NCBI GenBank assembly: GCA_025362195.1
Contig: JANYHV010000426.1
Span: forward strand, 1-35,999
Reading direction: 5' to 3'
Source: Fimbriiglobus sp.
Lineage (GTDB): Bacteria > Planctomycetota > Planctomycetia > Gemmatales > Gemmataceae
DNA length: 35,999 nucleotides
The notes below the pieces were generated by a model that ran no database searches, was not told where the DNA came from, and worked only from the letters and a program-made list of their open reading frames with translations. Positions 33,804 to 35,999 of the stretch are shown here, in pieces (within the stretch, counting starts at the first letter, position 1; every line of letters begins with the position of its first letter). The position numbers and the translations under genes were made by a program.

Positions 33804-34592
33804 ATGCCGACCGACCCGACGACCCTGGTCACCCTCGCCGCGTCGGCGTTCGCCGCCGGGGCGTTGAACTCGATCGCCGGCGGCGGCACCCTGCTCACCT
33901 TCCCCGCGCTGTTCGCCGTGATCGGCCCGGCGGCGGCGAACGTGACCAGTACCATCGCGCTGCTGCCGGGGTCGTTCGCCGGGGTCTGGGGCTACCGCCG
34001 TGAGCTGGCGGGGGCACGCCGCTTCCTGGTGCAGATGCTCCCGCCGAGTCTCGCCGGCGGCCTGTGCGGCTCGCTGCTGATGGTGGCGTACCCCGAAGAC
34101 TTCGGCCGCCTCGTGCCCTGGCTCATCCTCACCGCCGCGACGCTCTTCCTGCTGCAACAGCCGATCAACCGGTACCTGCGGAAGCGCCGCGCCGACGACA
34201 CCCCGCACCCCCCGGCGACCGGCGTCAAGCTCGCGGCGCTGATCGGCTTCCAGTTCCTCACCGCGACCTACGGCGGGTACTTCGGCGCGGGCATCGGCAT
34301 CCTGATGCTCAGTGCCCTCGGCTTCATGGGCGTGGGCGACATCCACCGCATGAACGCGGTGAAGACGTGCCTCGCGGCGGCGATCAACGCCGCGAGCGTG
34401 GTGGTGTTCGTCCGCGACGGACTCGTGAACTGGGACTACGCGGGGCCGATGGTGGTGGCCGCGATCCTCGGCGGCTACGCCGGCGCGCGGGTCGCGCGCC
34501 GGTTGCCGGCGAGTTACGTTCGGTACGCGGTCATCGCGATCGGCTTCGGGCTGGCCGCGTTCTACTTCATCAAGACGTACGCGCTGACGTGA
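33804..34592 (+). CDS. TauE/SafE-family membrane permease
   Basis: The 262-residue protein has about seven to eight membrane helices. Its two-fold repeated family motif is visible: ALNSIAGGGTLLTFPALFAV near residue 20-39 (A-G-x-x-N-x-x-A-G-G-G-x-x-x-x-P), and later YGGYFGAGIGILMLSALGFM near 153-172 (Y-G-G-Y-F-G-A-G-x-G). In the family such proteins are thought to export sulfite, sulfoacetate or related anions. The actual substrate is unknown. The 3' end overlaps the convergent P-type ATPase by 23 bases. Confidence 0.92.
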   Translation: MPTDPTTLVTLAASAFAAGALNSIAGGGTLLTFPALFAVIGPAAANVTSTIALLPGSFAGVWGYRRELAGARRFLVQMLPPSLAGGLCGSLLMVAYPEDFGRLVPWLILTAATLFLLQQPINRYLRKRRADDTPHPPATGVKLAALIGFQFLTATYGGYFGAGIGILMLSALGFMGVGDIHRMNAVKTCLAAAINAASVVVFVRDGLVNWDYAGPMVVAAILGGYAGARVARRLPASYVRYAVIAIGFGLAAFYFIKTYALT

Positions 34593-35999
34593 CCTTCCGC
34601 CACTTCGGCACGAACCCGATCGCGAGCAGGCGCTCCGCGAAGCCCGTGCCGAGCAGCATCCCGGCGAGCATCCCCGCCGTCATCCCGGCGAAGCCGGCCG
34701 CGACCGCCGCTGTCATACTCAGAATCGGGAACTGTGCCGCACACCACCCGCCGGCGGTCATGCCGAGCACCATGCCGCCGTTCCCGCCGGTGTACATCGC
34801 GACCATGTGGTGCCCGCGCGGTGCCGGGCAGCGGCCGAACCACCTCATCGCGACGTTCGCGAACGCGAGCATCCCGACCCACATCCACGGCTTCATCACG
34901 CCGCCGCGCATGGCTTCGACGCACGCGCAACACCCGCCGTCGGGCAGCGCGGCGAAGCCGTTGTCGGCCCACCACCCGAGTAGCATTCCGAGGTTGCCGA
35001 GCGTGAGCATTCCGTAGCACATGTCCAGCCAGTGCGGGACCGCGTAGCGGTGCCACGCGACCGCCAGCGCTGCTCCAACGAGCGCGAACGTACTCAGGAG
35101 GAGCGCCGCGGAAGCCGGTTCGCGCAGCGACGCGAGCAGCAGGAGGAAGGTGAACGCTTGAAGGAAGAACGCGAGGGCGTGCGCGACCGCAAGACCTACC
35201 CCCCCAACCCCCCTCCCTGAAGGGAAGGGGGAGGAGGACAACCGCTCGGTGGCACTCGCGGCTCGTCCGGACGCGTCGCGCGCCGACTCCCCCTTCCCTT
35301 CAGGGAGGGGGGCCGGGGGGATAGGTCGCCTTTGCCCCACCCGCGTTGACGAGAAGATTAGCGTGAGGCTCGACACCACCATTAGTACCGCGGCGACGAC
35401 CGGGTGAAGCACGCCGCACGCGGCGAGCGTCATGCCCACGAGGTTGTAGCACAGCGCGCGACACAGATTCCGGCGCACCGCCCGCACCGCGTCGCGACTG
35501 AGTTCCACAGCCCAGGGAAGCGCGCGGAGGTCGCCGTGGTACAGCGTGACCGCAGCCGCGCTGACCGCGAGGTCGGTGCCGCTCGACAGCGCGACGCCGA
35601 CGTGCGCCGCCGCGAGTGCGGAGGCGTCGTTGATGCCGTCCCCGACGAACAGCGGCTTCGCGCCGTCGGCCTTCGCGGCTTCCACGGCCGCACGCTTGTC
35701 GTCCGGCAGAAGCCCGCCGCGTGCCGGCGGGAGGCCGAGCGCCTCGGCGCGGCCGGTCGCGTCCCCGGTCAGCACTTCGACCGGCAGGCCGAGTTGCGCG
35801 AAGTGTGCGAGCGCCTGCGGGGTGGAGTCGCGCAGGCGCTCCGTCACCGTCGCGACCGCCGCGAGTACGCCATCGACTGCGACGTGAACACGATGCGACC
35901 CCACCCCCCGGCCCCCTCCCCCAAGGGGAGAGGGGGAGCAAAACGGCGACGTTCCGGCTCCCCCTTCCTTCTTAGGGAAGGGGGTTGGGGGGTTAGGTT
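34570..35999 (-). CDS. Heavy-metal P-type ATPase with C-terminal membrane extension (5'-truncated by window edge)
   Basis: The frame is open from the window edge to the stop at 34570, giving 475 visible residues. The metal-binding N-terminus, the first helices and the DKTGT site lie outside. Present are VAVDGVLAA, VEVLTGDATGRAEAL and KPLFVGDGINDASALAAAHV (hinge Asp pair), followed by the last membrane pair (NLCRALCYNLVGMTLAACGV and so on), typical of CopA/ZntA-type pumps. A GTG at 35904 could be misread as the start, but the motif order shows the protein begins further upstream. After the last ATPase helix come repeat-encoded peptide, then six or so extra helices with CCAC, RGHHM and many Met, not seen in ordinary pumps. 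Two inverted-repeat elements are read through in frame. Confidence 0.82.
   Translation of the reverse strand, partial: PNPPTPFPKKEGGAGTSPFCSPSPLGGGGRGVGSHRVHVAVDGVLAAVATVTERLRDSTPQALAHFAQLGLPVEVLTGDATGRAEALGLPPARGGLLPDDKRAAVEAAKADGAKPLFVGDGINDASALAAAHVGVALSSGTDLAVSAAAVTLYHGDLRALPWAVELSRDAVRAVRRNLCRALCYNLVGMTLAACGVLHPVVAAVLMVVSSLTLIFSSTRVGQRRPIPPAPLPEGKGESARDASGRAASATERLSSSPFPSGRGVGGVGLAVAHALAFFLQAFTFLLLLASLREPASAALLLSTFALVGAALAVAWHRYAVPHWLDMCYGMLTLGNLGMLLGWWADNGFAALPDGGCCACVEAMRGGVMKPWMWVGMLAFANVAMRWFGRCPAPRGHHMVAMYTGGNGGMVLGMTAGGWCAAQFPILSMTAAVAAGFAGMTAGMLAGMLLGTGFAERLLAIGFVPKWRKVTSARTS
35194..35326. mobile_element. MITE-like inverted-repeat element 1, inside the P-type ATPase gene
   Basis: Left arm 35194-35233 and right arm 35287-35326 are inverted 40-base repeats with about 36 of 40 matches around a 53-base centre. 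Each arm begins ACCTA(C/T)CCCC and includes the palindrome CCCTTCCCTTCAGGGAGGGG. No transposase is encoded. On the minus strand it is read as PPAPLPEGKGE, a linker, then SPFPSGRGVGGVG, without a stop. No clear target duplication is visible. Confidence 0.75.
35898..35999. mobile_element. MITE-like inverted-repeat element 2, inside the P-type ATPase gene
   Basis: Arms at 35898-35938 and 35958-35999 are inverted, C/G-rich and clearly related to the arms of element 1 (for example CCCCTTCCTTCTTAGGGAAG and GGGGGTTGGGGGGTTAGG), with a 19-base centre. It reaches the window edge. On the minus strand it reads PNPPTPFPKKEGG, then SPSPLGEGAGGGVG, in frame with the ATPase just before VHVAVDG. Confidence 0.7.

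Follow-up and report, generated by a model that had tools for sequence, protein, structure and literature searches.

Introduction

Palindromic elements that reside in frame within protein-coding genes were first described from Rickettsia (RPEs, for Rickettsia palindromic elements; Ogata et al. 2000 and 2002, as cited in PMC10969869 and PMC3733652). Repetitive extragenic palindromes (REPs) tagged with GTAG or CGTC were later reported from many phyla, likewise in frame in genes (Di Nocera et al. 2013, PMC3733652); that article records double insertions in one gene (uvrA, uvrB) and a CGTC type without a known transposase, and its authors argue that inactivating insertions have been removed. Two further kinds of element are comparable: REPINs, in which two inverted palindromes and a spacer form one mobile unit served by a RAYT (PMC3116915), and bacterial MITEs, which are non-autonomous, bounded by terminal inverted repeats and sometimes fused in frame (PMC10969869).

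Here we describe a family of palindromic elements detected in a draft assembly of Fimbriiglobus sp. (5.66 Mb, 509 contigs); the stretch of DNA analysed, hereafter the window, is the entire contig C104 of 35,999 bases. To the extent that the above sources describe them, RPEs and the present family are alike as palindromes of approximately 100–150 bp that lie in frame in unrelated genes, add a peptide and are non-autonomous, whereas RPEs belong to one genus and the family is GC-rich and occurs in at least five phyla; the arm sequences of the two also appear to differ. With the tagged REPs the family shares short palindromes, often arranged as inverted dimers, inside open frames and in many species; it differs in arm ends that mostly lack both tags, in longer arms (~42 nt) whose outer part, ACCTAACCCCCC, is unpaired, and in that no Y1 gene was seen to be flanked by family arms. 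The layout is also that of REPINs and the non-autonomous character that of MITEs, but no association with a RAYT was seen at 59 of 60 Y1 loci, and no parent insertion sequence with family ends was found in the loci searched. The literature searched, in which subscription work (e.g. on Nostoc small dispersed repeats) was thinly covered, yielded no description of the family arm, and motif words taken from the arm returned only unrelated papers among the matches listed. The kind of element is thus known, and the family itself appears to be undescribed in the literature searched.

Results

Two palindromic elements in one P-type ATPase gene

Both elements, IR1 and IR2 (Table 1), lie within one stop-free minus-strand frame of 475 codons, as the original prediction had stated and as far as the contig end allows it to be followed. 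The frame belongs to a P1B-type ATPase, having a P domain (Pfam HAD, PF00702, residues 44–132 of the frame) and copper-ATPase-like fold relatives, with Legionella CopA as the best PDB match (3rfu, 6.4e-33). Since the contig ends directly past IR2, it is not visible whether the gene continues upstream of it. The DKTGT motif is absent from the contig, and a search of the other readable host contigs with the N-terminal part of a relative's ATPase did not recover the N-terminal half, the only match beyond the window fragment being a 33% paralogue on contig C250. A gene for a TauE/SafE-type permease (33804–34592) adjoins the ATPase gene and converges with it.

Table 1 Coordinates of the ATPase gene and its palindromic elements in the window
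Feature	Position	Strand	Remarks
Heavy-metal-type P-type ATPase gene, 3' part with both elements	34570–35997	-	5' part beyond the contig
Native C-terminal membrane domain	34573–35192	-	Common to orthologues in other family genomes
IR1, palindromic element (dimer, inverted arms)	35193–35327		Linker 3' of last pump helix
IR1 arm	35193–35233	+	R1 orientation (ACCTAC...GGGGGAG); 53.4 bits
IR1 centre, 53 nt	35234–35286		IR2 without the same sequence
IR1 second arm, inverted	35287–35327	-	54.2 bits
Native ATPase segment separating IR2 from IR1: P-domain second half (TGD, GDGIND) and last pump helices	35328–35897	-	
IR2, palindromic element	35898–35998		N/P-domain joint; contig end 1 base further
IR2 arm (ACCCCACCCCCC...)	35898–35939	+	54.5 bits
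IR2 second arm (ACCTAACCCCCC...)	35957–35998	-	69.1 bits; nearest to family consensus

The elements are built alike, from two inward-facing arms of ~42 nt, each arm being a hairpin with the consensus RACCTAACCCCCCNNCCCCCTTCCCT-loop-AGGGAAGGGGGAG. The arms of IR1 (41 nt each) are 93% complementary and those of IR2 (42 nt each) 76%, and across the two elements the arms are 71–81% complementary. With total lengths of 135 and 101 nt, both fall within the size of protein-coding palindromic elements (about 100–150 bp). When folded alone as RNA, IR1 reached −120.4 kcal/mol against a shuffle mean of −69.0 (z −12.1) and IR2 −77.9 against −53.7 (z −6.2); in either case none of 200 shuffles did as well, so the palindromes are not due to chance. 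The relatedness of the two inverted-arm elements is borne out. Of the centre sizes originally given, 53 and 19 nt, the former is correct for IR1 and the latter is to be amended to 17 nt for IR2; the peptide SPSPLGEGAGGGVG originally given is absent from the ATPase frame, which reads PNPPTPFPKKEGGAGTSPFCSPSPLGGGGRGVG at IR2.

The sites within the protein were placed by alignment with orthologues. IR2 stops immediately ahead of the conserved hRVxvAvDG strand, where the chain comes back from the N domain to enter the second half of the P domain. IR1 occupies the linker that joins the last pump helix to the C-terminal domain, and this linker varies widely in length and sequence among orthologues. 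In the alignment with insert-free relatives that had been suggested as a check, the orthologues of G018, G010, G003, G012 and G022, which possess the extra C-terminal membrane domain, are continuous proteins without the IR1 and IR2 peptides. The orthologue of G017 (L044) is split into two overlapping frames, which may be real or an assembly error.

Could the two segments simply be a conserved domain or a native linker of this ATPase family, with no insertion having taken place? Both segments keep the frame, and at the IR1 site orthologues, too, have a linker that is Pro/Ser-rich and variable. Against this, the five genomes named above encode the pump without the peptides, and the DNA forms a long palindrome whose copies turn up both in unrelated genes and away from open frames, which makes a native domain or linker hardly tenable.

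Copies in the host and its relatives

Patterns made from the IR1 arms, exact or with three mismatches, had no match in the host outside the window, and arm patterns allowing up to 3 mismatches of 25 found nothing else in the readable host contigs. A pattern for the IR2 outer arm revealed the repeat in relatives from the taxonomic family of the host, at 26 places in G012, 98 in G013 and 16 in G017. A model built from 25 arms (R1) matched 9 of 41 genomes, the host included, at E ≤ 0.001: at least 150 arms were found in G013, 83 in G012, 56 in G023, 30 in G017, 27 in G002, 6 in G027 and 2 each in G005 and G019, and four in the host, all of them in the window. Outside C104, the best place in the host reached only E 0.11 in a search up to E 10. 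Host copy counts refer to readable contigs; among 20 sampled host contigs, five (C80, C105, C120, C300 and C500, each <3 kb) read as N only, amounting to 12,590 of 190,378 bases, which suggests that contigs below 3 kb are in general unreadable. Absence of the arms from other sites in the host had been named beforehand as an outcome that would speak against the prediction, and for the readable part of the assembly this absence is what we observe; in other genomes the arms are abundant.

The sole two host copies found sit in one gene, approximately 570 nt apart. Random insertion would not predict such a pattern, and it counts against reading the pair as a mobile element. The gene may stem from a relative rich in elements; alternatively, further copies may have disappeared or gone unassembled.

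An artefact of assembly or binning, with the contig end mis-joined or C104 derived from another, element-rich organism, would fit the facts that the contig stops at IR2, that the gene lacks its N-terminal half and that the family is otherwise absent from the readable host assembly. The tetranucleotide profile of the window, however, correlates at 0.91–0.97 with ten host contigs of at least 8 kb and at 0.43–0.88 with short samples of six relatives; IR1, moreover, is internal to a 36 kb contig, and a wrong bin would still leave the elements real in whatever organism they came from. We regard an artefact as quite unlikely.

Elements in the ATPases of relatives

An ATPase of a Gemmataceae bacterium (G041, RYN_437) is 69% identical to that of the window, has the same neighbour gene, the permease arrangement being repeated there, and carries a family arm at the N/P joint; it breaks across two contigs within the linker equivalent to the IR1 site. 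In all, four P-type ATPases other than that of the window bear family elements, namely L174 (that of RYN_437), L182 (Planctomycetia MAG), and L183 and L209 (Fimbriiglobus MAG); the elements of L174 and L209 lie at the N/P joint, as IR2 does, and those of L182 and L183 just before the GDGxND motif. The arm at the N/P joint of RYN_437 suggests, from the sequence, that the ATPase gene has been targeted again, and we count it in favour of a mobile element.

The two ends of the break in RYN_437 (L174, 5776–5811; L334, 2079–2114) are inverted copies of a different palindrome, around GGGGGGCGTGAGCCCCCC, which was not found in the window or in the 177,788 readable bases of the 20 sampled host contigs.

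Spread across phyla

A scan of contigs with a pattern consisting of a C run and a G run detected at least 119 stretches, and the matches listed belong to Planctomycetota, Cyanobacteria, Desulfonema, Armatimonadota, Chloroflexota and some others. In 28 genomes, all of them preselected by a pattern match, R1 found 2–154 arms per genome; one of these, G057, appears to be the same as G013, the coordinates being identical. The bases 5' of the C run lay outside the search pattern. There, 33 of 34 cyanobacterial arms and all 13 of those from Desulfonema have ACCTAA ahead of the C run. The shorter ACC is present at that place in 100% of the Chloroflexota arms (n = 15), 91% of the Armatimonadota arms (n = 11) and 94% of the planctomycete arms (n = 47). 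This agreement outside the pattern points to one family with common descent across phyla; on such a sequence comparison, chance or convergent C and G runs cannot yield the shared ACCTAA or ACC. In the remaining group ACC was found before the C run in only 23% of 13 arms, and those arms may therefore belong to other families.

The plasmid collection gave one partial match, in a Nostoc plasmid, with no annotated gene beneath it. Rfam gave 17 matches up to E 1, all to microRNA models and all below the gathering score, and we took these as chance similarity of hairpins.

Residence inside genes

The 119 stretches listed hold 142 elements, and 52 of the 111 elements with ≥400 nt to the nearest locus end are enclosed by an open frame (≥600 nt long, with 150 nt on each side of the element). 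Because open frames prove little in G+C-rich genomes, a Pfam test was applied to 30 of the 48 ORFs listed, which hold 31 elements. Thirteen of these are embedded in functionally unrelated proteins. Eight lie inside a single Pfam match: in the P-type ATPases L174, L182, L183 and L209, and in CHAT (L235), RNB (RNase R, L165), Iso_dh (L168) and MnmE (L190) proteins. Five lie between two matches: in a valyl-tRNA synthetase (L193), an alcohol dehydrogenase (L252), a CheR/TPR protein (L188), MgsA (L159) and a PSCyt2/PSD1 protein (L138). The other 18 elements had no Pfam match, a match on one side only, or matches whose places were not given; some of them may lie outside the true gene, e.g. in L223, upstream of an N_methyl motif. 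The likeness to the Rickettsia elements that was originally pointed out, a repeated palindrome in frame in a protein gene, therefore holds for the window, and the family occurs in frame in unrelated genes elsewhere as well.

A pseudouridine-synthase gene carries one and the same insertion, at an identical site, in Desmonostoc and Dendronalium. The flanks of the insert (dS 1.02, dN 0.17) are under purifying selection and the catalytic domain follows it; the insertion has thus been retained over the long term in this one cyanobacterial gene.

Frame openness and the loss of disruptive copies

The original prediction took the presence of two elements in one gene as a hint that the sequence is designed for tolerance as a peptide. 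Selection of the element for coding, with the arms kept stop-free in four frames for life inside genes, would agree with the mostly open state of four of the six frames (open fractions 0.76, 0.40, 0.90, 0.36, 0.83 and 0.78) and with the use of several of these frames by copies inside genes. Dinucleotide shuffles are equally open, with a mean of 3.88 of six frames as compared with 4.04 for the arms, and 2.04 as compared with 2.16 for whole paired elements, so that the openness follows from composition.

Across three GC classes, 11 of 39, 10 of 22 and 31 of 50 elements lie in open frames (0.28, 0.45 and 0.62), as against 0.59, 0.70 and 0.83 of length-matched random segments. Elements are thus rarer in open frames than such segments, and genes are not preferred. 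A purge model, in which insertion is blind to genes and every copy that is out of frame or carries a stop disappears while the rest persist, predicts 0.25, 0.35 and 0.56, and the observed shares do not significantly exceed this (p 0.39, 0.20 and 0.22; the elements cluster by genome, and ORFs served to estimate the coding share). The in-gene share therefore agrees with gene-blind insertion and a later loss of out-of-frame copies, without proving it. The notion of a sequence built for tolerance is not upheld, and we consider selection for coding improbable.

Search for a mobiliser

One candidate is a REPIN, a REP dimer moved by a RAYT, i.e. a Y1 tyrosine transposase of the IS200/IS605 type. The layout is that of a REP dimer, with two inverted hairpin arms and a variable centre, 42 of the 142 elements being inward +/- pairs with arms 4–95 nt apart; Y1_Tnp genes occur in 20 of 21 element-rich genomes searched. 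The linkage speaks against it: arms were present at 1 of 30 Y1 loci in the relatives of the host (1.8 kb away) and at 0 of 30 in element-rich genomes, and Y1 genes occur in 31 of 41 relatives (the host included), also in genomes without the family. Tag words at arm ends are rare: over 263 arms, GTAG or CGTC (or a complement) came within 6 nt of an end in 22 instances. With arms at 1 of 60 Y1 loci, Y1/RAYT was rejected as the mobiliser, and a REPIN of this type is an unlikely identity for the family.

No transposase beside the elements was seen in the 25 commonest of 157 Pfam families (107 of 162 neighbour ORFs scanned). Seven neighbouring arm pairs are spaced 500–3500 nt apart. By eye, the flanks of paired elements have no consistent direct repeat of the sort that a target-site duplication would leave.

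In some genomes the bases just outside ACC...GGT are inverted-similar, which may reflect longer, genome-specific arms or a preference for symmetric sites. This similarity exceeds that of mismatched pairs overall and holds in G012 (p 0.001) and in a mixed set of other genomes, but not in G013 (p 0.59) or G017 (p 0.92). We do not claim insertion into host hairpins, since genome-specific longer arms explain at least part of the similarity.

Discussion

We consider it probable that IR1 and IR2 are both copies of a mobile, non-autonomous palindromic element that inserts without regard to genes, frame-breaking copies being purged and in-frame copies kept. An enzyme acting in trans would provide the mobility. 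A copy that causes a frameshift or introduces a stop would be lost by selection; one in frame in a surface loop would be kept and presumably translated, as a Pro/Gly-rich insert of 30–50 residues. In the ATPase, the N/P-domain joint and the linker ahead of the C-terminal domain would each have retained one copy, these being two loops in which the pump may tolerate an insert. Gene-blind insertion with purging suffices as a quantitative account, and a special design is unnecessary.

A broader proposal is that a single horizontally mobile palindromic family, with arms nearly identical across at least five phyla, may be a general source of 15–50 residue inserts in housekeeping proteins, and may return to the same permissive joints of P-type ATPases in different species. 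This we advance tentatively, leaning somewhat towards doubt.

In-frame palindromes were once regarded as a speciality of Rickettsia and later found among the tagged REPs; the present family, with homologous arms in distant phyla and numerous copies per genome, carries the phenomenon over to environmental phyla. Short-read assemblies break at such elements within genes, as in the window. The natural insertions in RNase R, MnmE, valyl-tRNA synthetase and P-type ATPases offer a test of which loops accept a peptide. If the broader proposal is true, bacteria would carry a natural and repeated experiment on insertion tolerance in essential enzymes.
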